From the IMG/VR virus record IMGVR_UViG_3300005582_000158, positions 1-20,122 of that record: DNA of 20,122 nt; one strand, written 5' to 3'. Position 1 is the stretch's first letter. Every line of letters starts with the position of its first letter. This document shows positions 3,201-19,337 of this stretch, piece after piece. The notes beneath the pieces were generated by a model, which did not search any database, had not been told where the DNA came from, and saw only the letters and a program-made list of their open reading frames with translations. A program made the translations under genes and the position numbers. Source of the stretch: a virus.

Positions 3201-3230
3201 GCGGTGATTGTTTTCTAGCCGCTATCTTCG

Positions 3231-3244
3231 GGAGTGGCCCCCGT
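3231..3244 (-). promoter_or_regulatory. Conserved module-boundary element, copy 1
   Basis: On the coding strand this reads ACGGGGGCCACTCCC. It lies between the capsid terminator hairpin and the connector gene, 32 nt before the start codon. This copy can fold a 4-bp CGGG/CCCG stem around a 7-nt loop. It is the only copy not adjacent to a preceding stop codon. A promoter or activator site is the simplest reading because it follows a terminator. Confidence 0.6.
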
Positions 3245-3259
3245 GTGCAATGAATGGAA

Positions 3260-3292
3260 AAGCCGCCGTCCCACTGGCAGGAACGGCGGCTT
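3260..3292 (-). terminator. Hairpin terminator after major capsid gene
   Basis: A perfect 10-bp inverted repeat (AAGCCGCCGT / ACGGCGGCTT) extended by three inner pairs (one G-T wobble) closes on a 7-nt loop. On the coding strand it is followed by TTTT. It starts 23 nt after the capsid stop codon. The T-tract is short, so termination may be partial. It may also protect the 3' end of the capsid mRNA. Confidence 0.8.
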
Positions 3293-3315
3293 GAGCTAAC
3301 GACAAACTGAACGGA

Positions 3316-4221
3316 TCAGACAGTGGTGATTGTGAGGCGAGCGGCGCAAGCAGCGTTGTTGACGTATGCTGCCTCAGTCCATTCGGTGATGACTTTTTCG
3401 CCGAAGTCTTTCTGAAGGACGCGAACGCCGCCGAAAGGGTTCGCGGATACGCGGAACGTCTTAAACGCGGATGCGTCGAAGGTGTTTGCGCTTTCCTCTG
3501 CGAAATACAGCCAAACCTCAGTTCCAAGCGCTTTCGACTTAGTAGAAGTGCCGTTCATCGGAGTGTCTTTGATGGCGGTCGAAACCATGCACTTCGCGTT
3601 CGGGTTGAGGAAGAGACTGCCAATATCATCAATTGAAGGATTGATCTTCTGTGTCCCAGGGTAACGAGCAATCACTTTGCTGTGATTTTTGAAGATCGAC
3701 CATGCGCCAAGGTTGAAAACGACGCGGTTAGGAATGAGGCCGGTCGCGTTGGCGATGGTTTCCATGTAAGCGTCGATGTCAGCAACTGGATCATCCGATG
3801 CGCCCCAAACTTCGGCAGAGGCAGCGACGCCAGCGCGAAGGACGGTCAGAGTCTCATTCAGGCGGCTGTTGCCAGCTTGAGATACGAGGTTTTGAACGCG
3901 AGCCTCACGGAGCAAACGAGAACCTTCACCGGTGGTGGCATGGTCAAGTTCGTGAGTGTCGATGATGTCATGCAAAGCATAAGGGTTGAGGCTGATCGAA
4001 AGGCGCTCGCCATCGGTTTGAACGGCTGTGGAATCGCCACCGATTGCGCGTTTTGCGTTAGGCACTTGGAAGCCGGAACGCTTGGCGTAGTCAATGATGG
4101 TGAATTGTGCCGCGCCGGTTGTGACGATGGGAGCGAGGAAGTCAGCCAAAGGCGAAGAGGTCGATTGAAAGAGTCCCTTTGCGAATTGGTTTAGTGTGGA
4201 GATGTTTGCAGGAGTAGCCAT
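3316..4221 (-). CDS. Major capsid protein
   Basis: A 301-residue protein in the classical place after protease/scaffold and decoration genes. Features typical of an HK97-fold capsid protein of this size are an N-terminal arm (1-45), a central helical region with NLVSQAGNSRLNETLTVLRA (spine-helix-like), the segment NRVVFNLGAWSIFKNHSKVI (about 165-185) and a C-terminal beta region with RVLQKDFGEKVITEWTEAAY. It is the last gene before a strong hairpin, as expected for an abundant structural product. The leader before ATG 4221 is A/T/C-rich with no SD. The HK97 fold is inferred from position, size and pattern. Confidence 0.8.
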   Translation of the reverse strand: MATPANISTLNQFAKGLFQSTSSPLADFLAPIVTTGAAQFTIIDYAKRSGFQVPNAKRAIGGDSTAVQTDGERLSISLNPYALHDIIDTHELDHATTGEGSRLLREARVQNLVSQAGNSRLNETLTVLRAGVAASAEVWGASDDPVADIDAYMETIANATGLIPNRVVFNLGAWSIFKNHSKVIARYPGTQKINPSIDDIGSLFLNPNAKCMVSTAIKDTPMNGTSTKSKALGTEVWLYFAEESANTFDASAFKTFRVSANPFGGVRVLQKDFGEKVITEWTEAAYVNNAACAARLTITTV

Positions 4222-4259
4222 GATCTTATGGAGTTAAGGTGTGAATTTTTGGGTTAAAA

Positions 4260-4646
4260 TTAAGGAAGGATGATGTATGACGGAGAAAGAACGGCTTTGA
4301 TTAGCTGTCCCGCGATGGTGGAAGCCTCAAGAGCAACCGCGAACACTTTATGCGTTGCGGTCGTGGACTTGTTGCACTGGCCGGAAGCGGCTGGAACGAG
4401 GTTGTCGCCGATAGCGATACCTGATGCAGAAACTTCTACGAAGACGATTGCGCCGGAACCGGAAGGGGCGACGCTGACGATTCCACTTGCTTCGCAGTCG
4501 TTAATAACCACGCCGAGTGTTACTTCGGTGGCTGCGGTGGTGACGATAGTCGTTCCCGCGGAGACTTTGACGATTTTTCCACGGGTTACAGCGACCGCGC
4601 CGTTCGTGAACGGGAGGATTGGAATTTCATTTGCTAGGGTGCTCAT
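4260..4646 (-). CDS. Putative capsid decoration protein (DUF2190-like)
   Basis: A 128-residue all-beta protein rich in Gly, Ala, Val and Thr (GAVAVTRGKIVKVSAGTTI, LGVVINDCEASGIVSVAPSG). The domain pattern, in which short strands alternate with glycine turns and TLGVVIND is followed by a VFVEVSASGIAIGD strand pair, matches DUF2190-type small capsid proteins that lie just upstream of the major capsid gene and stabilise the shell. The gap to the capsid start is 38 nt, with no regulatory element visible. The leader CCCAAACCAAAACAAATC is A/C-rich and lacks an SD. Confidence 0.7.
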   Translation of the reverse strand: MSTLANEIPILPFTNGAVAVTRGKIVKVSAGTTIVTTAATEVTLGVVINDCEASGIVSVAPSGSGAIVFVEVSASGIAIGDNLVPAASGQCNKSTTATHKVFAVALEASTIAGQLIKAVLSPSYIILP

Positions 4647-4682
4647 ATTTTTTAGGTGTGTGAGATTTGTTTTGGTTTGGGA

Positions 4683-5699
4683 TTATGCGAATGCTTGAGG
4701 ATCGATTTCGGCGGCGCGTTCCCAGACGATCTGGAAGCCGGCGGATTCGCCTAGCTCGGTGCGAGCAGATGTGAGAGCGGCAGTAACGCGAGTTTCGCTG
4801 TCTTGGCCTGCTGCCGCGCCTGCTTTGACGATTGGATTGCCGAGTTCATCATTGAGCTTTGGAAGCTGAGCAAGAATTTCTTCAGCAAAGCTGTCACCTG
4901 CTGAAATCTTTTCGCGGAACTTGTCTTGCTTCTCGGTGTCTTTAGCGAGCAAGCGGCCATCTGTGACGGCTGCGCTCACAAGATCAGAGGCGCGTTGTTT
5001 GACGGCTTCGACTTCTTTCGCCTCGGCTGCTTCAACTTTAGTTTTGAGATCCTTGTTTTCAGTCTCAAGGCGATCTGCATCGGCTGCTTTTACTTTAAGA
5101 TTTTCGATAGCTTTTACAGCTTCGGTTTCTGCATTTTCAGCGGCTGCGCTGATCGAGAGGGAGGCGTATACTAGTGTCATGTTTGTAGTGTTTGTTTGGT
5201 GTGATTCGCTGGCTGCAATAGCTCCGATGTCTCGGAATGCGGGTTCGGTGACTAATCCGCCGATTGGACCTTTTAGCGGTAAGCCGGTAGGGAATCCGTT
5301 GCTATCTACGTAAAATTCGGGCGAGAAATAGCGGACGTCGCGACCTTCTACTGCATCACGACCACTTTTCGACCAGTCCATCGCAGCCATGACGCCCTTC
5401 CCTTTTTCGTAACGGAAGGAAGTCGGGTAAGCAGATGCCGGGAACTTGCGGGTGTGCTCAAAGTCAGTCCAAGGCTTTACTGGGTCGCTCATGCGCTTCT
5501 GCAGGTCTTTATTGAGAGCGGCTGCGATTGCTTCGCCTTTGTCGGCTGGAATGTGAATCTGAATGCCGTTTTTGTTAGACAGCGGGAAAATCTTATGGCT
5601 TCCCTCTGGTAGGAATACGATTTCAGCAGGTGCTTCGCTGCTATTTCCGGAAAAGGAAATCGCAGTAACAAGGTTAGCTGATGTAACGAGTTGAAGCAC
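4683..5699 (-). CDS. Mu-like prohead protease/scaffold (gpI-type)
   Basis: A 338-residue, two-part protein. Residues about 1-175 resemble the Mu gpI protease domain: a strand-rich N-terminus with HIPADKGEAIAAALNKD, a region with WTDFEHTRKFPASAYP, an RYFSPEFYVDSNGFP segment and the terminal motif GLVTEPAFRDIG, related to the LTNTPAI-type motif of gpI. Residues about 180-290 form a charged coiled coil (Glu/Lys/Ala-rich) typical of internal scaffolds. It should process the prohead while its C-terminal part scaffolds the capsid. The only in-frame start before an upstream TGA is GTG at 5699. A conserved module element lies 44 nt upstream. Which residues are catalytic cannot be decided by eye. Confidence 0.8.
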   Translation of the reverse strand: MLQLVTSANLVTAISFSGNSSEAPAEIVFLPEGSHKIFPLSNKNGIQIHIPADKGEAIAAALNKDLQKRMSDPVKPWTDFEHTRKFPASAYPTSFRYEKGKGVMAAMDWSKSGRDAVEGRDVRYFSPEFYVDSNGFPTGLPLKGPIGGLVTEPAFRDIGAIAASESHQTNTTNMTLVYASLSISAAAENAETEAVKAIENLKVKAADADRLETENKDLKTKVEAAEAKEVEAVKQRASDLVSAAVTDGRLLAKDTEKQDKFREKISAGDSFAEEILAQLPKLNDELGNPIVKAGAAAGQDSETRVTAALTSARTELGESAGFQIVWERAAEIDPQAFA

Positions 5700-5741
5700 G
5701 CTGTGAAATTGAGCAAGAAAACCTCACAATGTCATTCTGTG

Positions 5742-5757
5742 GGAGTGGCCCCCGTTA
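5742..5757 (-). promoter_or_regulatory. Conserved module-boundary element, copy 2
   Basis: The coding strand reads TAACGGGGGCCACTCCC, with the TAA being the stop codon of the gpF-like gene. The core ends 44 nt before the GTG of the protease/scaffold gene. No hairpin terminator precedes it. Confidence 0.6.
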
Positions 5758-6654
5758 ATCCATGACGATCCGATCTTCCTTTTCCCTGATTCTAGCAACG
5801 GCTTCGCGTGCATAATCGTCGGCGGTCTTGCTGCCTAGCGACTGGCGTTTCTGCTTCAATTCATCAAGCAATCGTTTCTTCACGTCGGGATTCATCGTCT
5901 TGACGCTCGCGCTCAACCCTTCGTTGAGTTCGGGAGGCTTTGCGGTTTCCTTCACGTCATCGACTTCCAGCCCTAACCGCTTCGCTTCTTCTCGGCTAAC
6001 GTCCTGCTGTCCCATGCCTGATCTAAAGCCATACGGCTCCCATGACACCCCGAAGCCGCCGATCTGTGGGTCGTTTTGATACATCGCCCACCATCCTTCA
6101 TCTGTTTTCAGCCTCACGTCGCCTTCATGCTCTGCGTGTCTCATGCGCTCGATGCCGACGTTGCGCTTGCGAATGAAGCGAGCAGCCGGAAAGCGGCGAA
6201 GAACGGCGGGTGTCATCCCTTGCTTCCAATTTCCGAACCCGTAGGCTTGCCGCACGTTCGTGTCAAAGATCAGGCGTAGGCGGCTTTCGCTTTTGATGTC
6301 TTGCAGGTCGTTTTGGTTCACCTCTGAGAATTCGCCCTCGCTCGCCATGCCTTCCTTGACCATGAAGACACGCATCGCCCGGACGAACTCGGCACGGCCA
6401 CCGGCCCGAATAGCAATGCTTTCAACTCCGCTAGGCGAAACAACCTTTTCAGTAGTTCCTGCCATGTAGTCAAAAATGAAAGCCTGCGCTCGATCAAGAA
6501 AACGTGCGTTCTCAACCCGTGACGAAAAGAACGAGCGGAATTTTACCGCGTCTTCTTCGCTTGCCCACGATGTCGAATCCCATTCTTGCGGGTTCGGGTT
6601 CTTGTCGAGGATGAAGCGGATTGCGTCCTCGTATAGCATGGGCTGAGTAATCAT
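5755..6654 (-). CDS. Phage head morphogenesis protein (Mu gpF/SPP1 gp7-like)
   Basis: A 299-residue minor head protein next to the portal genes, the standard location for the Mu F-like/SPP1 gp7 family. Visible family traits are the N-terminal helical region containing RSFFSSRVENARFLDRAQAF, the conserved centre with SRLRLIFDTNVRQAYGFGNW (about 135-154), the RNVGIERMRHAEHEG segment and the late EPYGFRSGMGQQ motif. It is thought to act inside or at the portal during head assembly. The start codon overlaps the stop of the gpG-like gene (ATGA), so the genes are translationally coupled. The C-terminal 60 residues are Lys/Arg/Glu-rich and probably helical. Confidence 0.8.
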   Translation of the reverse strand: MITQPMLYEDAIRFILDKNPNPQEWDSTSWASEEDAVKFRSFFSSRVENARFLDRAQAFIFDYMAGTTEKVVSPSGVESIAIRAGGRAEFVRAMRVFMVKEGMASEGEFSEVNQNDLQDIKSESRLRLIFDTNVRQAYGFGNWKQGMTPAVLRRFPAARFIRKRNVGIERMRHAEHEGDVRLKTDEGWWAMYQNDPQIGGFGVSWEPYGFRSGMGQQDVSREEAKRLGLEVDDVKETAKPPELNEGLSASVKTMNPDVKKRLLDELKQKRQSLGSKTADDYAREAVARIREKEDRIVMD

Positions 6655-7259
6655 AAGAGTTCAAGTTTATCAGTTAGGGCATCGAGCCAGCCTTTCGAGA
6701 ATTCGTCAGCAAGTAATTCTTCGGGCGGTATCGCGTCCGGCATCGGCGGCATGGTGACGCTTTTCACAAGTGCATAAACGCCGCGCACTCCACCGTCATC
6801 GGTCTTTTCCATGAGCACATTCTTCCCCTTTGGCCGAAAGAGTTTCTTTCTGGCGTAAATCTCATAATCAGCAACGCGTCGGCCTTTCGCATCTGGAATC
6901 AGCGGAATAGTGAGCCATGAAACGCGCTTCGGTGTGATCGTTCCTCCATTCACCTTGAAAGCGTAGTAATCCGCATTGTTTCCGATCACTGCGCCGGATG
7001 GATCAGCGGTGCGAAATGACCAGCCAGCCGCTACTTTTGATCCGAACTCTCCGGACTTACCAAGTGAGCCTTGCATGTAGCGACCGCCCTTCCATCCCCC
7101 TCGCTGGCTGAATGCTAGGTGATACGTTTCCGCCCCTTCCCTCGCCTGTCTACCGCCGACCTCGTTGAGGTCAGTTAATCCGCTGCCCGTGAGCGAGTCG
7201 ATCAAAGCGCCGATTTCTTCGGAAACCTTGCTGTCGATACTGACATCGATCTGAATCAT
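6651..7259 (-). CDS. Phage virion morphogenesis protein (Mu gpG-like)
   Basis: A 202-residue protein between portal and gpF-like genes, overlapping both by ATGA-type junctions. The N-terminal helix, a central strand with ADYYAFKVNGG, the basic segment ARKKLFRPKGKNVL and a helical C-terminus (LLADEFSKGWLDALTDKL) follow the pattern of the phage virion morphogenesis family, which covers tail completion or head-tail joining. The family is usually 150-200 residues. The exact role, head completion or tail connection, is not resolved. Confidence 0.65.
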   Translation of the reverse strand: MIQIDVSIDSKVSEEIGALIDSLTGSGLTDLNEVGGRQAREGAETYHLAFSQRGGWKGGRYMQGSLGKSGEFGSKVAAGWSFRTADPSGAVIGNNADYYAFKVNGGTITPKRVSWLTIPLIPDAKGRRVADYEIYARKKLFRPKGKNVLMEKTDDGGVRGVYALVKSVTMPPMPDAIPPEELLADEFSKGWLDALTDKLELL

Positions 7260-8977
7260 TCTTCGTATCGTTTGACGCTTCCGGCGATCATGGCCGTTCC
7301 GATTGCTTTCTCGAAAGCATCTTGCAGGGCTTCGGTTTTGATCCGGTCGAATAGCTCAGGCATTTCTTTCTGAGCTTTGTCGAGCGCGGCCATGAAGTCT
7401 TCATCGGTGACGCTTTTGGACATTGCTAGGGCTGCGAGACGTTCAAAAGCTGGGCGGACAGGTGAGAGCCATTCGCGGGTGACTCCCGTTAGGCTCTCGA
7501 GCACGGAATCAGCGAGCATGTCCACGGTTTTGAGTTTATCTGATGCGGCAGCAGCCGCTTGAATTGCTTTCAGCTCGTCCTTAGTCTCGTCAGGTGGTGG
7601 CGTTCCTTTTTGTGTAACCTCTGGAGTCCTTACAGGGACGAGCTGAAAAAGTTTGTCGCCTTCCGCTGGGATAGGCACGCCGAGGTCCTCATAAACGAAA
7701 GCCTCTGACATCGGCAAGTTCATGCGGGTGAGAATTTCCATGCGCTCGGCCTTGGCTTTCTCATCTTTCACGATCTCACGCTTTACCCATATCTCCGGCG
7801 CGTCTTCACGTCCGGTGCCATAGTTGACGGCGATGATTGCGGGGATGAATTGATAAGTGAGAACGCGCCCGACGAAATCGCAAACTGCATCAATTCTCGC
7901 TTGCTTCGTGTCGGCGTGAACCTCTCCAAGCGCACGACTTCCGCTTCCATCTGTTCCGCTGGTCAGGGTTTGTCCAAGGATGAACGTATCGCACTGCTTG
8001 TCAGCTAGGTCGATAAGCTCGCGCTGCGGTAGGTTTCCTCCGCCTTTGGACGATTCCACTAGGTTTATCTTCGTTTTAGGTCGAGTGATGAGATAACCAC
8101 GACTTCCGATGCCTGCGAGCATGCTGGCAACTGCGTTGTCATCTTTCGGGTCTGCTACTTCGGCGTGTCTCCATGGGATGCCGTAAAGCTGAGTGAAGTT
8201 CATAAACCACTTGAGACCATAGACGGCAGCGAGCCAGTAGGGAGCGAGAGCTCGGAGAGGTGCTGCGACTGAGGCGTGTCCGATGTGTCCTTTGTTGATC
8301 CCGATCAGGAAACGGTTGTCTGGGAAATCGACGTAGTTCCGGCTCCCCGTCAGTCCACTGGTGTCAAGCATCAGCCTGTCTTCGTTGTCGTCGCCGTGAC
8401 GCATCGTGTCATAGGGATAGCCGTAGAAACGCGCAGGAACCGGCTTCGTGGCGCGTGGCTTCCACATTCCGTCTTTATCCTTGCTCCAAAGAATTTCTTC
8501 TACCCCATGTCCGATGAAATAGCTCATCGCGAACGTGGAGATCATCTCTTCCAGGTTGTTTTCGCCGCGCTTAACGTCCGGCTTCATTCTCCATACGATT
8601 TCCTCGATCTCCTTCGCGAGTATTTCTGACTCTGGCGTTGGATCGTCGCCACGAATAGCAAACGGCATTACCTTCCACGGCGAGTTAGCGACCGCTCTTG
8701 CAATTTCTCCGATGTTCGATTGCAGCTTCGGCCATGAGTCAATCATAGCCGTAAAGAGAAGATGCTGATAGTGAAGATCGCCATTCAAAGCAGCGGCAAG
8801 CGTTTGCTTTACGTCGCCCGGTAACTGCTCGCGCTCGAAAAACTCAAGCATTCTGTCCCTCGCCATCGGTAGATTGATCGACTGAGAGAGCGAATCATTG
8901 CGATCTGATGCCGCCGTCACTAATTCTTCACCGCTTGGCGTGAATGCTGACTTAACGAAATCTAAGATTTTTCCCAT
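7256..8977 (-). CDS. Portal protein (DUF935, Mu gp29-like)
   Basis: A 573-residue portal. The N-terminus (1-75) carries the DUF935-type segment DVKQTLAAALNGDLHYQHLL followed by a helix and a strand containing SPWKVMPFAIRGDD. The core has the helical YFIGHGVEEILW region, the beta region PVPARFYGYP, the conserved APLRALAPYWLAAVYGLKWF helix (about 235-254) and the GIPWRHAEV turn. The C-terminal 110 residues are charged and probably helical (residues 460-573). It forms the dodecameric DNA gate of the capsid and works with TerL. It heads its module 43 nt after a conserved GGGGGCCACTC element. Overlap with the next gene is 4 nt. Confidence 0.9.
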   Translation of the reverse strand: MGKILDFVKSAFTPSGEELVTAASDRNDSLSQSINLPMARDRMLEFFEREQLPGDVKQTLAAALNGDLHYQHLLFTAMIDSWPKLQSNIGEIARAVANSPWKVMPFAIRGDDPTPESEILAKEIEEIVWRMKPDVKRGENNLEEMISTFAMSYFIGHGVEEILWSKDKDGMWKPRATKPVPARFYGYPYDTMRHGDDNEDRLMLDTSGLTGSRNYVDFPDNRFLIGINKGHIGHASVAAPLRALAPYWLAAVYGLKWFMNFTQLYGIPWRHAEVADPKDDNAVASMLAGIGSRGYLITRPKTKINLVESSKGGGNLPQRELIDLADKQCDTFILGQTLTSGTDGSGSRALGEVHADTKQARIDAVCDFVGRVLTYQFIPAIIAVNYGTGREDAPEIWVKREIVKDEKAKAERMEILTRMNLPMSEAFVYEDLGVPIPAEGDKLFQLVPVRTPEVTQKGTPPPDETKDELKAIQAAAAASDKLKTVDMLADSVLESLTGVTREWLSPVRPAFERLAALAMSKSVTDEDFMAALDKAQKEMPELFDRIKTEALQDAFEKAIGTAMIAGSVKRYEE

Positions 8978-9017
8978 GCGCTGAGATTGCCAGCGTCTCT
9001 CGCGTGTGTCGCCGTGT

Positions 9018-9033
9018 GAGAGTGGCCCCCGTT
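9018..9033 (-). promoter_or_regulatory. Conserved module-boundary element, copy 3
   Basis: The coding strand reads AACGGGGGCCACTCTC, two bases after the stop codon of the lysis membrane protein. Its core ends 43 nt before the portal start codon. No obvious -10 box lies downstream. Confidence 0.6.
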
Positions 9034-9035
9034 GT

Positions 9036-9233
9036 TTAGCGGTGACGCCAATGACAGACCTCTACGCCGCAGCCCTTGGACAGTCGGTCAATATCTTTGC
9101 GAAAATGTTCGATCAATGCGTCTTGTGCGTCGAGGCGGGATTGCAAGTTGCGCCAGATGATACCGGCGAGCGTTGCTATTACTCCTGAGAGAGAAATTAG
9201 AGTGGCGAGAATCCAAGAGACGGGAATTTCCAT
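9036..9233 (-). CDS. Small one-span membrane protein in lysis cassette
   Basis: A 65-residue protein with one hydrophobic segment at about residues 6-27, followed by a charged amphipathic stretch (28-52) and a short Cys/His tail with C55, C60 and H61. It starts 20 nt after the amidase gene. Size, one membrane span and a neighbouring endolysin suggest a holin, spanin-like or XhlA-like lysis accessory protein. The Cys/His tail could bind a metal or form a disulfide (inference). Translation starts without a visible SD. Confidence 0.65.
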   Translation of the reverse strand: MEIPVSWILATLISLSGVIATLAGIIWRNLQSRLDAQDALIEHFRKDIDRLSKGCGVEVCHWRHR

Positions 9234-9253
9234 GAGTAATCTTTAGTGAGTGG

Positions 9254-9808: not shown

Positions 9809-9810
9809 GA

Positions 9811-10434
9811 CTATTCGGGAATCGGGATTGCTTTTGGTATTAGGTGAAATTCATCTTCAATGATGCGCAAGGCGCTATTGAGCGCGATAGGTGCTTTGAA
9901 GATCCCGCTGTGGCCTAGCCCGTGATGATTGATCGACTCATAAGAATGATTACGATAACGCTTTTCGTGGAGGGAGGGATGGGTGGCTTTGTAACCTAGC
10001 TTTCCCATTTCCCCCCAGGGATGAAAAGCTAACCAGCGCGAGAGCCAGACGATTTTGTCGCTCTCCGTGTGGAAAACGAGGCACTTGCTAACGGTTGGAG
10101 AGAGAGCCGTGTCGCAGTCGAGTGCTGGGTTGAAATACACGCAAGAAACCTTGGCTTTATACAATGATGAAAGCTCATGCAATGCTTGATCGATGAGGTT
10201 GCAACCATCCGAATGACCGATTAAAATATCACCGGCATGAACTTCTTTCGCGAGTTGCTGCGCTCTGCGTTTGTTTGATACGCGAACGCCTAGCAGTCCT
10301 CGCCAACCGCTTAAAAATTCGGTCACTTCGTATCGATCATTCTTGCGGAATAAGCTCGCTAGACGTCCAGTCGTGCCTTTCCCGTCGTCTGAGACGTTGA
10401 AACCGTGAACTAGAATGACGCGCTGCTGCTGCAT
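9811..10434 (-). CDS. Alpha/beta hydrolase (lipase/esterase-like) in lysis cassette
   Basis: A 207-residue protein with alpha/beta hydrolase hallmarks: an oxyanion-type HGF motif (residues 10-12), the nucleophile elbow G-H-S-D-G with S75, a candidate acid D126 and a candidate histidine H175 in GLGHSG. The core is complete but small with little lid. I chose ATG 10434 over GTG 10446 because an AAGG lies about 11 nt upstream. It is the first gene of the lysis module, directly before the amidase. This suggests an envelope-lipid or wall-ester hydrolase aiding release, analogous in position to LysB of mycobacteriophages, but no sequence relation to LysB is claimed and the substrate is unknown. Confidence 0.7.
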   Translation of the reverse strand: MQQQRVILVHGFNVSDDGKGTTGRLASLFRKNDRYEVTEFLSGWRGLLGVRVSNKRRAQQLAKEVHAGDILIGHSDGCNLIDQALHELSSLYKAKVSCVYFNPALDCDTALSPTVSKCLVFHTESDKIVWLSRWLAFHPWGEMGKLGYKATHPSLHEKRYRNHSYESINHHGLGHSGIFKAPIALNSALRIIEDEFHLIPKAIPIPE

Positions 10435-10479
10435 TGAATGACACACCTTTTTTCAGTCGCCGTCAAAAGTCATGGCGTT

Positions 10480-10494
10480 GGAGTGGCCCCCATT
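10480..10494 (-). promoter_or_regulatory. Conserved module-boundary element, copy 4
   Basis: The coding strand reads TAATGGGGGCCACTCC, overlapping the TAA stop of the 300-aa repeat protein. It has one change (C to T) in the leader base of the motif. The core ends 47 nt before ATG 10434 of the hydrolase gene and opens the lysis module. Confidence 0.6.
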
Positions 10495-11395
10495 AATTAG
10501 TTAGATCTACAGAGTGAGGAATTCCGAGAGACGCCTTCTGGACGCCTTCGTTTATGGTGTCTAGGTCTTGAAGCAGTGTATCTCTTACTGCCGCCCCCAC
10601 GTTGGAAGTTGTGAGCAAATCGCCCGTAACTGTAATATCTGAACTAACTCCCGCCGTTGCTCTTGGTGCGCCTGTAAGTTCTCCGTTGCCTTTTAACGCT
10701 GCGATGGTGTTTCCTAGCGCAACAACCGAAGCGGTTGCATTCGATGACCCAGCAAGATCTGCGACCATCTTCCATATCATCTTTGCCGCTGCTTGGCTTA
10801 CGTCACCGTTGCCGCTTAAATTGGAAATCATCTGGATGCTGCCAGTAATATCGGCTGAGACCTCACCGCTTCCGAGTAAGTTTGCGACTGCTTGCAATGC
10901 TCCTGCTAAGTCTCCCGATACGTTACCGCTTCCAGCAAGTGCCGCAGTTGCTGATAAAGCTCCAACTAAGTCAGAAGATAATGCGCCCGCGCCAACTAGA
11001 TTTGACTCAAGACTAAGCGCTCCTTTGATTGCCGCCGCGATTGCCCCGTTACCAGTGAGTGCTGCGGATGCAACGATGATATAAACAATCCCTGCGTTTG
11101 TGATATTGCCCGTTCCCGTCAATGCCGCTGTCCCTTTCAAACCTCCTGCTAGGTTTAGGTTGGCTAAATTGCCAGCTCCTTTAGTGCCGGTGAATGATGC
11201 AATGCCGCCGCTCTTTGTAGCTAATGCCCATGATGTCGGCGAGGTGGCGCCAAGCGGGATAGATGCACGGGGGGCACTCAAAAGAAATCCTCTAATGTTT
11301 CCGTTTTTGCCAGAAGATGCACGATCATTCAACGTCGAACCTGATATGGTTCGACCGATCATTTTATTCAGAACGCTGTAATTTCCGATAAGCAT
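10493..11395 (-). CDS. Repeat-rich structural (fibre-like) protein
   Basis: A 300-residue protein. Residues 1-75 form a non-repetitive head, residues about 91-242 form about seven units of 20-21 residues with the pattern LxGxG, then variable, then a short hydrophobic helix or strand (for example LAGSGNVSGDLAGALQAVAN), and residues 260-300 form a C-terminal tail with AVRDTLLQDLDTIN. Composition is Gly/Ala/Ser/Asn-rich with few charged residues. Such regular glycine-spaced repeats are common in phage fibre or tail structural proteins and may form an elongated shaft. It ends the structural block; a conserved element overlaps its stop. Function beyond structural is unknown. Confidence 0.7.
   Translation of the reverse strand: MLIGNYSVLNKMIGRTISGSTLNDRASSGKNGNIRGFLLSAPRASIPLGATSPTSWALATKSGGIASFTGTKGAGNLANLNLAGGLKGTAALTGTGNITNAGIVYIIVASAALTGNGAIAAAIKGALSLESNLVGAGALSSDLVGALSATAALAGSGNVSGDLAGALQAVANLLGSGEVSADITGSIQMISNLSGNGDVSQAAAKMIWKMVADLAGSSNATASVVALGNTIAALKGNGELTGAPRATAGVSSDITVTGDLLTTSNVGAAVRDTLLQDLDTINEGVQKASLGIPHSVDLTN
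10670..11125 (-). repeat. Region coding seven 20-21-residue LxGxG repeats
   Basis: The translated units begin at about residues 91, 112, 133, 153, 173, 193, 214 and (partial) 234. The two middle units at 153 and 173 are the most alike. At DNA level the units have diverged, so this is an old protein repeat, not a recent tandem duplication. Confidence 0.75.
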
Positions 11396-11401
11396 TATTT
11401 A

Positions 11402-12556
11402 TTAACCCCAAGCAAAATCAAGATGGCCGATGAACGAACTGTTTACAGGTGTGCCAACTCCTGAATAAAGAAGCCAAGTCAAACACGCTCCGTCATAGAT
11501 CCGAGGAAGAGATGGGACTTGGTTCATTAAGTCGCGTTCCGCTGCGACTCCTAGGGTTGTCATTGGTAAGGTGAGAAGTGGCTTGATGAGCAAGACTGAA
11601 TACTCGCCAGAAACATAAGTGATTGAGTTCGTGATTGATTCAATTGATCGAATCCCGGCATCTCCAGCTTGTAACGGCATCATTGGATTGTATTTACCTG
11701 CTCCCGTTCCCGAGTAGAGAACAAGTGAGTTCGCCGCTGCTACCTTGCCGATTGGCAATATGCTTGGCGTAGCTCTAGATGCGGTCGCTGCGCTGTTCGT
11801 GTATCCAAGGCTAAGGTTGGGCGCGGAAACTCCGAGCGGTGTGGCGTTGGAGTTAATGAAGATAGCCTGAACCCCTGCGCCGTTTGTATAACGAGGAAGG
11901 AGACAGTTAAGTGTATGCACTCCCGTGCCGGTGCTTGTGATGTCGATACTTGTTCCAGCGACGGCGTTCGCGTAGTTTGTCGCGAGCTTGCAAGTTGTGT
12001 CTGTTACCTTAATAACAAAATAGTCAGTTGCGAGAGCTAAACCAGCGGGAAGCGCGGCTGTGGTAGTGAATCTAACAGTAGTAAGCGGAAGTAAATTAAA
12101 GAACGAATGAGTGATAGTATCCGTTCCTGCATCTGCCGTAAAATCCCCCCGTGCGGTAAGCGTGTTCGTTGTCGCTTGTGCTGTGGTAGTCGTCACAGAA
12201 GTCACGCGATAGAAGCCTACAATATCCACAAGCATCGCAACGGCTGGCATGGTAGTTGCCGATGCACTAAACGCGCTGGCGTTGACTAGGTGCTTGTAGT
12301 CAGGGGCTACGTTGCCGCCATGTAAAATGCCTGTTGCGTTCGTCGTGGTATCGGTGAGTTGCTGGAACGAAAGGTTCGTTCCCGTGTTCAATATAGCGTC
12401 TGCCGCTGGGTTGCCACCCCCTCTGAATAGAGAATGCCACTCACCCGCAACCGCCGCTGTGGTTGGGTTAAAGTTTTTGTTCCAATCAGAACGAAAGAAC
12501 TTTCCGAGAACTGAAGTTTTTTGAATGAAGTCGTCAAAGCTGGTGAATCCGGGCAT
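11402..12556 (-). CDS. Structural protein, paralogue of the upstream 286-aa gene, with inserted domain
   Basis: A 384-residue protein sharing ordered blocks with its upstream neighbour: start MxGFxS, HGGNVxPxxKH (about 79-89), LPRYTxGAGV (220-229), YTNxxxTAxR (252-261), PLQAGDxGxRSIxSxT (294-309), LxLxKPL, and a PxIxDxAxLxxL end. Between FYRVTS and LPRYT, residues about 133-217 hold an extra domain absent from the paralogue, with the pattern LPAGLALATDYFVIKVTD ... SIDITSTGTGVHTLN. This pattern recurs as a bolt-on beta domain in many phage tail and fibre proteins. Probably a virion surface, fibre or baseplate protein. It starts 16 nt after the paralogue's stop. Confidence 0.75.
   Translation of the reverse strand: MPGFTSFDDFIQKTSVLGKFFRSDWNKNFNPTTAAVAGEWHSLFRGGGNPAADAILNTGTNLSFQQLTDTTTNATGILHGGNVAPDYKHLVNASAFSASATTMPAVAMLVDIVGFYRVTSVTTTTAQATTNTLTARGDFTADAGTDTITHSFFNLLPLTTVRFTTTAALPAGLALATDYFVIKVTDTTCKLATNYANAVAGTSIDITSTGTGVHTLNCLLPRYTNGAGVQAIFINSNATPLGVSAPNLSLGYTNSAATASRATPSILPIGKVAAANSLVLYSGTGAGKYNPMMPLQAGDAGIRSIESITNSITYVSGEYSVLLIKPLLTLPMTTLGVAAERDLMNQVPSLPRIYDGACLTWLLYSGVGTPVNSSFIGHLDFAWG
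11906..12160 (-). other. Domain insertion (about 85 residues) within structural paralogue
   Basis: Codes for residues about 133-217 of the 384-aa protein. Aligning the two paralogues by eye leaves this segment unmatched, while both flanks match. Boundaries are approximate to several residues. The segment itself resembles a recurrent phage beta-sandwich add-on domain. Confidence 0.6.
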
Positions 12557-12571
12557 ATTATTATTATTTGG

Positions 12572-13432
12572 TTAGTTAAAAACGGTTTTAATTAGCCCGT
12601 GAATCGGAGTGCCTGAAAGCGATCCGTTTGGGCAACAAATGAAATTGAGGTAAGCGTTGTCCTGAATCGGTGGACATTGTGCGAAATTAAGAAAGGGATC
12701 GATTTCAACGGGTGCGTCAACCCCTCTGATTTGCATTTGGCAAAGAGGCTTCACAAGGACAAGCGTGAACAATCCCACATCGCCGCCGAGCATGGTCACG
12801 CTTTGAATACTTCTTACTCCAGTATCGCCAGCTTGGAGCGGGATAAATGCGCCTGACGCGGCTGCAATAGCCCTATCACTTGTCACGATTGATCCGTTCA
12901 CCGATACGGAATTTTGAATGACTGTTGAACTGATTCTACCCGCTGTGCCGTTTTGGTTGGTGTAGTTCACAAAAAACGATTGTCCACCTGTTCGACCTGC
13001 TACTGATACCGCCATGATCTTAACTCCCGCGCCTGTCGTGTAGCGGGGCAGGGTGACTGTATTCGCTAGGAATTGCTCATCAGTTGTGCCCTCGTCGATG
13101 AACGGGTAGAACATGAGATAATCCAGAAGCATCATAGGCATTGGCAATGGCGTTGCTGTCGTGGTCATTGCCATGATGTGACGAACGTGCTTAGTCAAAG
13201 GCGATACGTTACCTCCGTGAGATAACCCTCCATCGCCTGATTGGGTTAGCGCGATGGCAGTTAAAGGGGTCGCTGCGTAATACTGAGGCGAGGGGAAACC
13301 GGAAGCCATGGAAAGATCAAACCATATTCCTTGCGGGGAAATCTGATTCGATTGTTTCCTAAAGCTAGAATACCTGACATTGCCGGATTCCTCAGCAGAT
13401 GCTAGCTCTGATACTGACGCAAATCCCGCCAT
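12572..13432 (-). CDS. Structural protein, shorter paralogue
   Basis: A 286-residue beta-rich protein homologous to the following 384-aa gene across nearly its whole length, but without the inserted domain. Shared landmarks are HGGNVSPLTKHV (72-83), LPRYTTGAGV (128-137), PLQAGDTGVRSIQSVT (198-213) and VLVKPL. No signal peptide or catalytic motif is seen. The pair resembles virion structural or fibre proteins expressed as tandem duplicates. The start ATG at 13432 follows the zinc-ribbon gene stop by 3 nt and has an AGGA 9 nt upstream, one of the few SD-like sites here. Confidence 0.75.
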   Translation of the reverse strand: MAGFASVSELASAEESGNVRYSSFRKQSNQISPQGIWFDLSMASGFPSPQYYAATPLTAIALTQSGDGGLSHGGNVSPLTKHVRHIMAMTTTATPLPMPMMLLDYLMFYPFIDEGTTDEQFLANTVTLPRYTTGAGVKIMAVSVAGRTGGQSFFVNYTNQNGTAGRISSTVIQNSVSVNGSIVTSDRAIAAASGAFIPLQAGDTGVRSIQSVTMLGGDVGLFTLVLVKPLCQMQIRGVDAPVEIDPFLNFAQCPPIQDNAYLNFICCPNGSLSGTPIHGLIKTVFN

Positions 13433-13435
13433 GAT

Positions 13436-13582
13436 TTATTCCTGTAATCCCCCAACGCCGTAAGCAACGGCTTCCATCTCAGCTATGATTGGAGCTTCGG
13501 TATGCTCACAAGTGCGAGTGATTACCTCAACCTCGATCAATACCACCTCTCCGCATTCCGAACATTTATGTGGAGTGGACAT
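13436..13582 (-). CDS. 48-residue zinc-ribbon-like protein
   Basis: A small ORF that fills the space between two structural genes exactly: ATG at 13582, TAA at 13436-13438, 2 nt after the upstream stop and 3 nt before the next start. The protein begins MSTPHKCSECGEVV and later has a TCEH pair. C7, C10, C25 and H27 could coordinate one zinc. The acidic middle and short tail show no other motif. Tight packing and the metal-binding pattern argue that it is real. Its role in a structural block is unknown; a small zinc-binding assembly or regulatory factor is possible. Confidence 0.7.
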   Translation of the reverse strand: MSTPHKCSECGEVVLIEVEVITRTCEHTEAPIIAEMEAVAYGVGGLQE

Positions 13583-13584
13583 GA

Positions 13585-14016
13585 TTAGGATTCAGTTGCG
13601 GTAAGGGCGTTGATTGCAAACTGGGGCTGAATCAAGTTGGATACAGCAAGTGACGCTGAAAGTGCGCCTGCGTAAAGAACCTTGCCTGCACCGCTCAATG
13701 CTGTGCCGATTGCAACGTGGGTGAGAGTTGCGCCAGAAGCTCCGCATTGAGGAAACTGAGCAAGTGCCGCGTTTGTTGCTGCGCCGCTTGCTACTGTCCA
13801 TCCTGCGCCGTTGCGGGTAATCGCAATACGAGCATAGTTTGTATAGGCTGCTTCGTTGGTAAGCTGTGAACCACCAATGCCGGGCGTTGCTGTATGCAGC
13901 GAAAGGTAAAGGCTGGTTGCTGGCGCTGCTGATGCGTTGTCTGCGATGTTGGCGATTGCCGTCGCATTGAAGATCAGCAAAGCAAGATCGTTTGAGAATG
14001 TGGTTGATTTTGGCAT
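13585..14016 (-). CDS. Phage structural protein of the LYLSLHTATPG family
   Basis: A 143-residue protein with a pattern I recognise from many tailed phages: a hydrophobic N-terminal helix, then LYLSLHTATPG (about 42-52), EAAYTNYARIAITR, a GWTVASG turn, a FPQCGASGATLTHVAIGTA strand pair, and SGAGKVLYAGALSASLAVSN before a short tail. Such proteins are annotated as fibre or baseplate-associated structural proteins, with no enzyme role. It starts after an A-rich leader (AAAAAAAGAAAAAACATC) without an SD. Family resemblance is clear; its exact site in the virion is not. Confidence 0.75.
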   Translation of the reverse strand: MPKSTTFSNDLALLIFNATAIANIADNASAAPATSLYLSLHTATPGIGGSQLTNEAAYTNYARIAITRNGAGWTVASGAATNAALAQFPQCGASGATLTHVAIGTALSGAGKVLYAGALSASLAVSNLIQPQFAINALTATES

Positions 14017-14032
14017 GATGTTTTTTCTTTTT

Positions 14033-14515
14033 TTAGATTGGTTGCGCTCTTGTCACAATTAGCCCGGACAAGTTAGGGCTTGAGAATGCGGAGAAGAATT
14101 GATCCAAACTTGAATCGTAGGGAGAAGGTACGAGGCGGTAGTAGATGGTAGCTCCATAAGCGTATTGATAAACCTCCCCCGCTGCGATGGTGTCGATCAA
14201 CACAGGTGCGGTAGTCCATGAATCTTTGAGCGTAACCCATCCGGAAACCCCGTTGGATTCTCCGGCCTCCATGATTTGGACGAGGATCGCGGGTGGTTGA
14301 GTTACCTCTAAGTCAATGACGGTTTCTCCTGGAAGTTCGATAGTTAGATCGGCAGGCTGAGAAATAGCTACTGTGACATCTGCCGCGCTTGGTTCTTCAA
14401 TAGTGACTGAAATCTCAGGATTCTCTTCGATGGCGACCTGAAAAACAGTTTCCTCACTGCCCGAAAGGTTAATCGGCGGAGTCTGCGTCAGAGTTATTTC
14501 GATTAGATCACTCAT
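14033..14515 (-). CDS. Beta-repeat structural protein
   Basis: A 160-residue acidic protein. Residues about 20-85 consist of short alternating strands separated by Pro (PEISVTIEEP, DVTVAISQP, DLTIELPGE, IDLEVTQPP, ILVQIMEAG). A distinct C-terminal domain follows (95-160), starting GWVTLKDSWTTAPVLIDT and ending near LIVTRAQPI. The strand-Pro repeat is typical of linkers or beta-solenoid parts of phage baseplates and fibres. The start overlaps the previous gene by ATGA coupling. A role in host contact or tail tip is inferred from position. Confidence 0.65.
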   Translation of the reverse strand: MSDLIEITLTQTPPINLSGSEETVFQVAIEENPEISVTIEEPSAADVTVAISQPADLTIELPGETVIDLEVTQPPAILVQIMEAGESNGVSGWVTLKDSWTTAPVLIDTIAAGEVYQYAYGATIYYRLVPSPYDSSLDQFFSAFSSPNLSGLIVTRAQPI

Positions 14516-14850
14516 TTTAGGATGGTTATACTTCCTTTCAGCAGGGTGATTTTATCGCTGCTCGCTGTTAGTCTTACTTTGAGCGCGAAATCGTGCTTGC
14601 CTAGCGGCCACTCAGCGGTGACTGAATCTGAAATTTCATTGATATGAATAACGTTGGATCCTGCTCCGGTAATGTTCGCGGTAGATTCTTCGGTGTCCCA
14701 TGTAACAACGGTCACTCCGGCTGCTGTGACGATCGTCATCACTGCGGAAGAAACGGCAACGGCGGAGGCGGATTGCGTGACGGTCGCGATATTACGTGCC
14801 GCGAACGTATCGCCTCTGGTAATGCTTGGGATTTCGTATGTTGCCGCCAT
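14512..14850 (-). CDS. Baseplate upper protein-like (BppU N-terminal-type) protein
   Basis: A 112-residue beta-sandwich-like protein. It opens with the common phage pattern ITRGDTFAARNIATVTQ, continues with a hydrophobic strand set (AVMTIVTAAGVTVVTWDTE) and a late WPLGKHDFALKVRLT strand, and ends with LLKGSITILK. This order resembles BppU-type N-terminal domains of phage baseplate or neck proteins, which attach receptor-binding parts. It is the first gene after TerL, with the conserved element 66 nt upstream of ATG 14850. It overlaps the next gene by 4 nt. Confidence 0.6.
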   Translation of the reverse strand: MAATYEIPSITRGDTFAARNIATVTQSASAVAVSSAVMTIVTAAGVTVVTWDTEESTANITGAGSNVIHINEISDSVTAEWPLGKHDFALKVRLTASSDKITLLKGSITILK

Positions 14851-14913
14851 GGATCGTATCTCTTGCGAGTTGGCTTGTGTTATATCGCCTCAAGATCGGT
14901 GTGTGATAGCGGC

Positions 14914-14930
14914 AGCAGTGGCCCCCGTTA
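14914..14930 (-). promoter_or_regulatory. Conserved module-boundary element, copy 5
   Basis: The coding strand reads TAACGGGGGCCACTGC, starting at the TerL TAA stop. The last two bases of the motif differ (TGC for TCC). The core ends 66 nt before the ATG of the first structural gene, the longest distance of the six copies. Confidence 0.6.
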
Positions 14931-16286
14931 GAATCCCGTCACGAGTCCAGTGCTGAATTGCATTGAATCTCTCGGCTGCTGAATAATGTTTTTCGCGGAA
15001 ACCGCACCGCTTAACCGTGAGCCGCAGCCGATGCAGCCTAGCAGAGCGTCAGCGCGGTCAGGGGACTTGATGCCGAGCTTTGCCATCTTCTCCTTGCTCT
15101 CACAGCGCAGCTTGCCCTTGTCGCTCCATTCGCTTTTCCGCGTGCTGATCTGTCTGAAGGTGATCGGGTCGAGCTGTCCGAGGTAAACGCGGCCCCGCTC
15201 GATCTCACGAGCTCCAACGTGCCACACTTCTCCGATGAGGTTCGCGTATTCTTCGGGATCGCTCGCAGCTTGCCCACCGTGAAATCGGTTCATGAAGAAG
15301 CCGAGCTCTTCGATAGCGTCAATCATTACGGTTCCTAATCCGTCAGCATCTCCCCACACTTGACCGGGCTGCAATCCATTTAATGCGAACTGATGAACGA
15401 ACTCACGCGCCGCTTGCATCGTGTCCTTCTCAATCCATGCCTTAGCGATGCAAGCGTGATTTCCCCTTCGTATCGCTAGCACGTTTTCGTCGCGCCCCGC
15501 TGCGAAGTCACAGAATGCCACGGTCTCGCCTTCTTCATTTTTTGGCGGCTGCGACTCGATGGCTTTGGCGAGCCGCTGTGAATCGATCACAAGCCTGTCC
15601 AAATCCTCAGTGAACTCCGCAAGGTGCATTGAGCGGTAGATTGGATGGTCTGCGCCGTAAGTCTCCAAGTCACGCTGCCGCTTTTCGGGGTCGATGTGCG
15701 GACACATATCAGAGCTGACCTTGATTGAGTAGAAATGCGCGGCCCGCGAGTGATGCGAGTCGTAGAATGCGCCACGCGGTGCGCCCGGTGAACTTGCCCA
15801 TATTTGAAAGAGTCTTGTGCATCGGTCAAACGCTTCGAAAACGCCTTCCGGCACGGTCTTCGCCTCGTCAACTACGATCATCACGGGGTCGGTATGATTG
15901 CCGAGCTTTGGATGCCAACCTTCGGCCCGTCCCGCGTCGTCAGTTGCGAAGCCAAGTGCGAAACCCTCTTCGTGCGTCTTGATCTCAGTTTGAAGGAAAT
16001 CCCAATGAGGAAAGACGCGGCGGTGTGTTCGCATCGCAGGCCATAGCTGCTTCTCAACCTGACGGAATGAACCCGAAGTGATGATGGCTTGTCCCCTTGG
16101 GTATTCGTTCAAGAACCACAAAACAATCGGCGCGATCACATCGCTGGTCTTGCCTGATCCGTTAGCAGCAACCAAGGAGAGAGGTTGACCACCTTCGGCT
16201 TGTAAGCCCACGGATTCCATCGCTTCGGCCTGCCAGTCATACGGGCGTTTGCCTAGCTTCATGACCGCGAACTCAGCAGGACTCAT
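14928..16286 (-). CDS. terL: Terminase large subunit (TerL)
   Basis: A 452-residue packaging motor from ATG 16286, which overlaps the TerS stop (ATGA). An upstream ATG at 16340 would add 18 residues inside TerS and is less likely. The ATPase half has a Walker A-like AANGSGKT (40-47), Walker B IVVDE (137-141) and a coupling motif SSPG (165-168). The nuclease half has candidate acidic ligands D260 (FCDFAAGRD), D313 (WGDADGLG) and D410 (SPDRADALLG), matching an RNase H-like fold. It cuts and pumps phage DNA through the portal. Length and motif order are normal for TerL. Confidence 0.93.
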   Translation of the reverse strand: MSPAEFAVMKLGKRPYDWQAEAMESVGLQAEGGQPLSLVAANGSGKTSDVIAPIVLWFLNEYPRGQAIITSGSFRQVEKQLWPAMRTHRRVFPHWDFLQTEIKTHEEGFALGFATDDAGRAEGWHPKLGNHTDPVMIVVDEAKTVPEGVFEAFDRCTRLFQIWASSPGAPRGAFYDSHHSRAAHFYSIKVSSDMCPHIDPEKRQRDLETYGADHPIYRSMHLAEFTEDLDRLVIDSQRLAKAIESQPPKNEEGETVAFCDFAAGRDENVLAIRRGNHACIAKAWIEKDTMQAAREFVHQFALNGLQPGQVWGDADGLGTVMIDAIEELGFFMNRFHGGQAASDPEEYANLIGEVWHVGAREIERGRVYLGQLDPITFRQISTRKSEWSDKGKLRCESKEKMAKLGIKSPDRADALLGCIGCGSRLSGAVSAKNIIQQPRDSMQFSTGLVTGF

Positions 16287-16708
16287 TTCGTTTTGTGGGT
16301 GCGAGTCCCTCTGATATGTTTTCGAATGTCTGCCGCCCATGCACTCACTGCTTCGGCATCTTCCTTGCTCAGCGTGCCGTTGACGTTGCCGGTATGCTCT
16401 GTCTTAGCTTCGACCTTTTCAGCCTGTCCGAGAATCTGCTTGCCGAGCCAAATCAAAAGCGCGACGTTGCCGGCTAGTGCCAATTCAAACTGCTTTTTCC
16501 TGAGCCTTGTTTTCCCGTTTTCCTTCCCTTTCTCGATTTCAGCGGAGAAACGATCTGCCAAAGTATCAACCGAGCAACCGACAACGGCAGCGATTTCTTT
16601 ATTCGAGCAACCGATGCCAGCGAGCTTTTCAACCGTTGCCGGGTCGATTTCTATCAATGGTCTTCCGATCTTCGGATCATCTTCTCTGGGTTGTTTTTTT
16701 GCGCTCAT
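16283..16708 (-). CDS. terS: Terminase small subunit (TerS)
   Basis: A 141-residue DNA-binding protein just before TerL. ATG 16708 overlaps the ParB-like gene stop (ATGA); a longer frame back to 16834 only shadows that gene. An HTH-like segment (about 24-52, ATVEKLAGIGCSNKEIAAVV then GCSVDTLADRF) precedes a helical oligomerisation region (65-100, with GNVALLIWLGKQILGQ) and a charged tail. This matches the TerS family of HTH-plus-oligomerisation proteins. It recognises the packaging site on phage DNA and recruits TerL. Confidence 0.85.
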   Translation of the reverse strand: MSAKKQPREDDPKIGRPLIEIDPATVEKLAGIGCSNKEIAAVVGCSVDTLADRFSAEIEKGKENGKTRLRKKQFELALAGNVALLIWLGKQILGQAEKVEAKTEHTGNVNGTLSKEDAEAVSAWAADIRKHIRGTRTHKTK

Positions 16709-17427
16709 GGTTTTGCTTCTTTCATTTCGTCGTTCTTGACGGTCAGCCCGTCGGTGCGTCGATTGCGCTTCCTCGCCTGCTCGGGCGTTTCGTTCATGCC
16801 CAGCGCGACGTTGTACGGCGGGTCGGTGAGCCACATGTCAACGTCCTGCTCGCCGCACAGCTTCCGCAGGTCATCAATGCTGGTCGAGTCTCCGCACATG
16901 AGTCGATGCTTACCAAGCACCCAGACATCGCCAAGCACGCTCACCGGATCGATGGGCGGCTCAGGCACTTCATCGGGGTCGGTTTCTCCCTCGGTTGTCT
17001 CCGCCATCAGGTCGGCGAGCTCTGATTCATCAAAGCCGATCAGCGATAGATCAAAGTCCTCGTCTTTCAGTTCGCTTAATTCAAGCGCGAGCATTTCTTC
17101 ATCCCATCCGGCATTCAGCGCGAGTTTGTTATCTGCGATAATGTAAGCGCGTTTCTGTGTCTCGGTCAGATAGCCTAGGCGGATGCACGGCACCTTGTCG
17201 AGTCCGAGCTTCTGCGCTGCCATGACTCGACCATGCCCTGCGATGATTCCATTTTCCCCATCGATCAAGACGGGGTTCGTGAAGCCGAACTCTCGGATCG
17301 ATCCTGCAATCTGTGCAACCTGCGCCTCTGAGTGCGTTCGGGTGTTTCGCGCGTAAGGGATTAAATCTGCGGTTTGCAGTGTTTCGATTTCAATGTTTTT
17401 CGCGGTCGTTATTTGCTTCGGAGGCAT
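16705..17427 (-). CDS. ParB-like domain protein with truncated DNA methyltransferase tail
   Basis: A 240-residue protein. Residues 10-110 form a ParB/Srx-like domain with PYARNTRTH, GFTNPVLIDGENGIIAGHGR (catalytic-type GHGR at 64-67) and KVPCIRLG. A linker of acidic and Pro residues (115-165) leads to WVLGKHRLMCGD and TDPPYNVA (201-208), the start of a beta-class N4/N6 methyltransferase domain with its DPPY motif. The chain stops about 30 residues later at KNDEMKEAKP; the FxGxG SAM-binding part seen in complete ParB-methylase fusions (about 400 aa) is missing. Methylation is therefore unlikely. The stop overlaps TerS by ATGA, so the truncated form is integrated in the packaging operon. Confidence 0.85.
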   Translation of the reverse strand: MPPKQITTAKNIEIETLQTADLIPYARNTRTHSEAQVAQIAGSIREFGFTNPVLIDGENGIIAGHGRVMAAQKLGLDKVPCIRLGYLTETQKRAYIIADNKLALNAGWDEEMLALELSELKDEDFDLSLIGFDESELADLMAETTEGETDPDEVPEPPIDPVSVLGDVWVLGKHRLMCGDSTSIDDLRKLCGEQDVDMWLTDPPYNVALGMNETPEQARKRNRRTDGLTVKNDEMKEAKP

Positions 17428-17435
17428 ATTCGCAT

Positions 17436-17464
17436 TTTATCGTTTTGCCAGGCGAAGAGGTCAA
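17436..17464 (-). promoter_or_regulatory. Possible sigma70-type promoter before ParB-like gene
   Basis: TTGACC (17459-17464) and GATAAA (17436-17441) are separated by 17 bp. Initiation would fall at or just before ATG 17427, giving an almost leaderless mRNA. The conserved element abuts the -35 box on its upstream side. No equivalent boxes stand out at the other five copies, so this is tentative. Confidence 0.3.
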
Positions 17465-17664
17465 CTTTCGGGAGTTGTCCCCGTGATTATGGTTTGATCG
17501 TGCAACTCATCAGAGTGACGCTGATTCCTAGCCGCTTGCCATGCTTCCCATGCTCTTTGCATGGATTCCATGTAATAAATCTCAGATACAGGTAATAGCT
17601 TCTTCGTGCTTAATCCTCGTGATAAAGCCCACTCCTCAAACTCTCGTCTAATTTCCTCGCTCAT
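17461..17664 (-). CDS. Small phage orphan (FEEWA...AWEAWQAA type)
   Basis: A 67-residue protein with an N-terminal helix REFEEWALSRG and a later MESMQRAWEAWQAAR helix. This pairing of an F-E-x-W start and an AWEAWQAA segment recurs in small early phage proteins of unknown function. The last 18 residues are polar, and its 3' end runs through the sixth conserved element. The ATG follows a purine-rich AAGAAAGATAGATAG leader. Confidence 0.65.
   Translation of the reverse strand: MSEEIRREFEEWALSRGLSTKKLLPVSEIYYMESMQRAWEAWQAARNQRHSDELHDQTIITGTTPES
17471..17484 (-). promoter_or_regulatory. Conserved module-boundary element, copy 6 (variant)
   Basis: The coding strand reads CACGGGGACAACTCCC, a variant with two changes in the GGGGGCCACT core. 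It lies inside the last codons of the 67-aa gene, and its core ends 45 nt before the ParB-like start. A 4-bp CGGG/CCCG stem with a 7-nt loop can form, as in copy 1. Confidence 0.5.
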
Positions 17665-18080: not shown

Positions 18081-18231
18081 TCTTCGCTCTAAGCCATGCC
18101 GAGCGGTGTTTCTTGCCGCCGGATAGCTTGTCCATTTTTGACCATTGCTCAGGCAGCATCGACAAGCTAGATGTTTTCGTTTTTCTTCCTTTGCCGCTGC
18201 CTGGCGGTCGGCCTACTGGTCGTTTTATCAT
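18055..18231 (-). CDS. 58-aa AT-hook/ribbon-helix-helix DNA-binding protein
   Basis: A compact gene with ATG at 18231 overlapping the stop of the preceding repeat-protein gene (ATGA) and TAG at 18055-18057. Residues 3-17 (KRPVGRPPGSGKGRK) contain an AT-hook core GRPPGSGKGR. Residues 21-51 read like a ribbon-helix-helix unit: strand SLSMLP, helix EQWSKMDKLSGG, helix HRSAWLRAKID. Such small basic proteins act as transcription factors or DNA-organising proteins. It is the only obvious DNA-binding regulator candidate in the early region. The 3' end holds AAGGAG, possibly the SD of the next gene. Confidence 0.7.
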   Translation of the reverse strand: MIKRPVGRPPGSGKGRKTKTSSLSMLPEQWSKMDKLSGGKKHRSAWLRAKIDQHKEKE

Positions 18232-18611: not shown

Positions 18612-18612
18612 A

Positions 18613-18933: not shown

Positions 18934-18934
18934 A

Positions 18935-19315: not shown

Positions 19316-19337
19316 ATGTTTGGTTTGCGCCCAGAAA

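Follow-up and report, generated by a model that had tools for sequence, protein, structure and literature searches.

A conserved box at the heads of late modules in phages of Verrucomicrobiota is very probably the activator site of late promoters with mostly leaderless mRNAs

What marks the heads of the late gene modules in this phage, and at which step of gene expression could such a mark act? The window, the whole stretch of DNA analysed here, is a complete viral contig of 20,122 bases, for which a sequence-only reading had described a near-invariant 16-bp element at the start of six modules. The late genes of the window encode a ParB/methylase-like protein, the small and large terminase, an endolysin, a Mu-like portal, a minor head protein, a Mu I-like protease and the capsid protein. 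Outside these genes, four consecutive related ORFs on the minus strand (18228-19612) are made of 21-aa repeats with a 63-nt period, like DANGKEIYxENSDGxWWKxE, and the left end of the window (1-144) contains 39-nt direct repeats.

On the minus strand we found six copies with at most two mismatches to the 15-base sequence ACGGGGGCCACTCCC, compared with a mean of 0.33 in shuffled sequences, none of which reached seven. All six are intergenic, stand at the heads of late modules and have the same orientation as the genes (Table 1). This bears out the sequence-only reading, the coordinates of which were correct to within 1-3 nt, as was its statement that four of the six copies begin on or beside the stop codon of the preceding gene. 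The copy at 17470 coincides with the extreme end of the preceding 67-aa ORF (17461-17664). Calling the element near-invariant over 16 bp was slightly too strong: the 15-mer is exact in only two copies, the others have one or two mismatches, and the part conserved across relatives is GGG[A/G]CCAC plus TCnC. The sole further match to the 15-mer in the window, at 11267-11281 on the plus strand, has three mismatches, is intragenic and resembles a chance occurrence.

Table 1. Boxes and predicted promoter parts in the window, with -35 and -10 assignments inferred from the alignment of 66 copies
Feature	Position	Strand	Remark
Box P1 ACGGGGACAACTCCC	17470..17484	-	head of ParB/methylase-terminase module
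P1 -35-like TTGACC	17459..17464	-	from the alignment
P1 -10-like GATAAAAT	17434..17441	-	GATAAA with spacer 17, or TAAAAT with spacer 19
P1 predicted transcription start	17429-17427	-	ATG at 17427
Box P2 ACGGGGGCCACTGCT	14914..14928	-	directly after large terminase gene
P2 -35-like TATCAC	14903..14908	-	weak
P2 -10-like TATAAC	14879..14884	-	predicted start ~14872; leader of ~22 nt, the exception
Box P3 ATGGGGGCCACTCCA	10479..10493	-	head of hydrolase/endolysin (lysis) genes
P3 -35-like ATGACT	10468..10473	-	
P3 -10-like AAAGGT	10445..10450	-	predicted start 10438, ATG 4 nt on at 10434
Box P4 ACGGGGGCCACTCTC	9018..9032	-	head of portal gene
P4 -35-like GCGACA	9007..9012	-	
P4 -10-like CAATCT	8984..8989	-	predicted start 8977, the A of the portal ATG
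Box P5 ACGGGGGCCACTCCC	5741..5755	-	head of protease/capsid genes
P5 -35-like ATGACA	5730..5735	-	
P5 -10-like CAATTT	5706..5711	-	spacer 18; predicted start 5699, the G of the GTG start
Intrinsic terminator	3258..3292	-	13-bp stem with T run, close upstream of box P6; -25.7 kcal/mol, z -4.5
Box P6 ACGGGGGCCACTCCC	3230..3244	-	after capsid gene, head of tail genes
P6 -35-like TAGCGG	3219..3224	-	
P6 -10-like CATGAT	3196..3201	-	predicted start 3189, 1 nt before GTG 3188

By terminase and portal searches 111 related loci (1.24 Mb) were collected. The nearest named phages by terminase are phages of Akkermansia and prophages of Luteolibacter are closer still, which places the hosts in the Verrucomicrobiota. 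In the 111 loci the locus strand has 67 copies of the core GGGG[AG]CCAC and the other strand 7, compared with 7/7, 13/16 and 18/26 for reversed or scrambled cores; a core copy within the protease gene (for example at 10575 in G011) reads as coding sequence and was excluded from the counts. The core recurs at orthologous heads (portal, protease, post-capsid, ParB/methylase-terminase and post-terminase), typically 44-45 nt before the start codon, and the genes downstream of the boxes included 11 protease, 10 portal, 8 post-capsid and 6 ParB/MTase genes. When the core was combined with a start codon at the fixed distance, several matches per well-covered box-bearing phage were obtained, on one strand only, and none in the controls. 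A scan of IMG/VR revealed the composite pattern in 12 stretches and the scrambled core in one. The early region was checked in relatives: the 35.2-kb G001, with a terminase 96% identical to that of the window, reaches into it and shares the six strong copies without having any further one. A single conserved site ahead of several late operons, with the early region free of it, is the arrangement of activator-dependent phage late promoters. On the terminase tree the presence of the box is clustered, with 5 changes compared with 13 on average in shuffles. The phage L128 carries the box and the candidate activator described below, yet its terminase groups with those of box-less phages; this hints that the box travels with other modules, and is only a hint because the branch of L128 is long.

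De novo motif discovery on the upstream regions with a home-made EM program returned noise only, and a guided alignment was needed to see what lies between box and start codon. The alignment comprises 66 non-redundant copies chosen for a start codon 43-46 nt past the core, so that the peak at 44/45 nt among the 66 is partly due to the design; the core columns were fixed by the search. The unselected histogram of ATG/GTG triplets has its peaks at 44 nt (38) and 45 nt (19) as well, with 13 as the next highest value. In 44 of the 66 copies a T.G stands at precisely +10 from the core; other offsets beyond +1 have it only 0-8 times, the TC.. adjoining the core being the exception. Ahead of the start codon, an A...T pair is located at -11/-7 in 30 copies and at -12/-8 in 14 (together 44/66), with eight or fewer at any other place. 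Two single bases are enriched as well, C at -1 in 45 of the 66 copies and G at -14 in 40. This signature belongs to the box, since the -11/-7 pair is rare at box-free starts of the same phages (12/123 and 6/102, or 6-10%).

The spacings are 9 nt from box to -35, 17-18 nt from -35 to -10 and 6-7 nt from -10 to the start. A degenerate -35 and a -10 at a constant distance from the site are what is found at activator-dependent late promoters, and a -10 whose last base is 6-7 nt ahead of the start codon is what is found at leaderless sigma70 promoters. Sigma70 geometry at these spacings would yield a transcript starting at or next to the start codon, and the box-driven late mRNAs are predicted to be mostly leaderless or nearly so. 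A Shine-Dalgarno-like sequence precedes 6 of the 66 box genes and is also scarce at other starts (57/384, with crude start calls).

Taken by themselves, the matches to -35 and -10 are weak. In the window, the distances from core to start codon are 46, 67, 48, 44, 45 and 33 nt, the last one belonging to the post-capsid copy. The post-capsid gene probably starts with GTG 3188 and not with ATG 3200; the latter overlaps the predicted P6 -10, and the orthologues begin at GTG 3188. With this better-supported start, common to the orthologues, the distance of 33 nt becomes 45 nt. In both the window and the relative G006 a strong intrinsic terminator stands immediately before the post-capsid box, and a new transcription start is therefore needed there.

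We consider it highly likely that the element is where an activator binds in a late-promoter regulon, one served by a phage activator together with host sigma70 and producing mostly leaderless mRNAs. A late promoter or activator site had been one of the functions originally suggested, and this part stands and can be made specific: the box, a fixed 9 nt to a -35-like element, then a -10 and a start near the start codon. Computation on the sequences shows the box with its orientation and constant spacing, the columns at -35 and -10, the recurrence at orthologous places and the confinement to phages, which together argue strongly for a promoter; that the box exerts positive control we infer. A phage-encoded activator would bind the asymmetric box c-GGG[A/G]CCAC-TCnC, with the core at positions of about -52 to -45 relative to the start codon, and would aid a host sigma70-type RNA polymerase at the degenerate -35 (T-n-G-A/C, 10 nt past the core). 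About 17-18 nt beyond the -35 a minimal -10 would follow, with A at -11 and T at -7 and frequently a G at -14, and transcription would start at the start codon or up to 4 nt ahead of it. One factor could in this way switch on about 6-8 late operons together.

A candidate for the box-binding activator is a conserved early protein (25206-25700 in G001), predicted to combine an XRE-like HTH with a three-stranded sheet and helix. Homologues are present in 11 of 11 box-bearing contigs longer than 20 kb, the truncated window being left out; in the genome of the window, the counterpart would lie just past the right end of the window. Box-less contigs of more than 20 kb are mostly without the protein, with a diverged copy in G008 (L013 184-438) and remote ones in two Akkermansia phages. 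The link between protein and box is one of co-occurrence along a clustered phylogeny. In some box-bearing phages the HTH half is absent and the second domain stands alone. Comparison of the candidate with HTH families gave weak matches, with sigma region 4 (PF08281, PF04545) below the cut-off. For the C-terminal part, the order of strands and helix in the full-length model fits an AP2/arm-type domain, and 4 of 13 members match PF20172 (DUF6538) weakly. Structure comparison aligned it with the HPI integrase arm domain 3jtz (VIA Z 4.3, rmsd 3.4, 58 aligned) and with the AP2 domain 6sy0 (VIA Z 4.5, rmsd 6.9, 54 aligned), scores that do not exceed those of unrelated folds (Z up to 5.4), so that the resemblance is a weak one. 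A profile search of solved structures with the C-terminal domain found no relative, and none of the structure comparisons was decisive. The 58-aa AT-hook/RHH protein, proposed earlier as a possible binder, is less likely: its homologues were found only in G001/L005, G009, G010, G011 and G013 and their loci and it is absent from other box-bearing phages, whereas the HTH/AP2-like protein is present in all well-covered ones. Another phage gene (L020 258-476, corresponding to 20058-20276 in G001) is weakly similar to ribosome modulation factor (PF04957, below the cut-off).

Could the box act in another way at the same promoters? As an operator, it would bind a repressor that silences the late genes in the prophage, and the leaderless promoters would be unchanged. 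We judge this very unlikely: a DNA-level site beside a promoter and a candidate with an XRE-like HTH, as in many repressors, would be in keeping with an operator, but an asymmetric box at a constant 9 nt upstream of a degenerate -35 fits polymerase contact better, and the corresponding place in box-less sister phages matches the sigma70 consensus more closely. Less probable again is a phage sigma factor or polymerase-binding protein that reads the box as an extended promoter element and replaces host sigma70. Downstream of the box the sigma70-like -35/-10 bases are kept at standard spacing, and the below-threshold resemblance of the candidate to sigma region 4, which would suit such a factor, has to be set against the absence of the HTH half in some box-bearing phages. 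An RNA element in the 5' UTR, either a processing site or a ribosome-loading signal as also suggested from the sequence alone, is the least likely of all, for the fixed box-to-start distance, the orientation and the scarcity of Shine-Dalgarno sequences would agree with it, but the conserved -35/-10 columns between box and start account for the distance, no hairpin is conserved and the post-capsid copies follow a terminator. The CGGG/CCCG hairpin described for two copies can form a 4-bp stem in only 25 of the 66 copies and was rejected as a common feature. Pairing of CCACTCCC with 16S rRNA was considered and dropped since the TCCC part is only partly conserved.

An activator-dependent late regulon has precedents. 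The Mu late promoters lys, I, P and mom are activated by C (PMC4461284). Mu likewise has several late operons with an activator site upstream of a non-consensus -35, and the Mu-like portal and I-like protease are common to both. In contrast to Mu, the box has a different sequence and is asymmetric, the mRNAs are predicted to be leaderless, and the early region of the relative G001 encodes RecT, a RecE-like exonuclease and a DnaC-like loader. A profile search with the candidate activator gave no match to the Mor/C model. In P2, as summarised in PMC3931495, the zinc-finger protein Ogr activates the late promoters PP, PO, PV and PF, and a small phage activator with one short motif for four late operons is similar in kind to what we propose. 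The P2 site is TGT-N12-ACA and the zinc finger CX2CX22CX4C; the box is G/C-rich and asymmetric without such conserved columns, and the candidate family is without conserved cysteines, which matters only if the candidate is the activator. In cluster K mycobacteriophages, the start-associated sequence (SAS) lies within about 10 nt of the start codon. It has the sequence GGGATAGGAGCCC and is a short asymmetric repeat found mostly in one orientation at many gene starts (PMC3203893). The box differs from it in sequence and is located 44-45 nt upstream of the start, with promoter elements between.

The regulon is new, while its functional kind, the activator-dependent late promoter of phages, is known. 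Two points are unusual, namely an asymmetric box for which there is a possible activator and the predicted leaderless state of major late mRNAs. Mapping in Akkermansia muciniphila put about 10% of transcription starts at the start codon (PMC4782308); this bacterium is in the same phylum as the hosts, but its leaderless transcripts come from host promoters without the phage box. A text search of the literature for the box gave no phage paper among the matches listed, and none on Luteolibacter phage promoters was found in a search outside which most subscription journals lay. Gene control in Verrucomicrobiota phages is little known, and the analysis provides a testable late-gene regulon with start predictions at base resolution and a candidate activator. 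A further implication is that portal, protease and tail genes may be translated without a leader, and start-codon calls are corrected accordingly. How phages use leaderless mRNAs becomes directly testable in cultured Luteolibacter strains.

Frequent matches in host genes had been named as an observation that would speak against a phage element. Most host genomes have no such excess: in four of five assemblies the core with a fixed-distance start codon was at or near the control level, and Luteolibacter pohnpeiensis, which contains several prophage fragments, gave 15 matches compared with 4 in the control. In a box-less clade of phages the post-terminase place contains TTGACG-N17-CATTGT, and in Akkermansia prophages TATGAT or TATCAT is found there 6 nt before the ATG. 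Sigma70-like promoters in box-less relatives make short-leader or leaderless late transcription an apparent common background, to which the box looks like an addition accompanying a weaker -35. In the box-less G008, AAATAGGATACnTTCGnTGTT occurs twice on the minus strand, at 35140 and 28483 of the contig (loci L025/L026). This sequence, given also as AAATAGGATAC.TTCG.TGTT, is located after the terminase and before the gene in the protease position, which are box places elsewhere. A new family of late activators, with an XRE-like HTH plus an AP2/arm-type-like domain or the latter alone, might read the GGGACCACTC box and produce leaderless late mRNAs across a group of Verrucomicrobiota phages, with diverged activators of relatives using other boxes, such as AAATAGGATAC in G008, at the same gene heads; for this wider proposal we see the balance as even. 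Two contigs binned as Porticoccaceae and Oscillospiraceae (L048 and L062) carry terminases of the Verrucomicrobiota-phage type, which reflects either a binning error or a wider host range.
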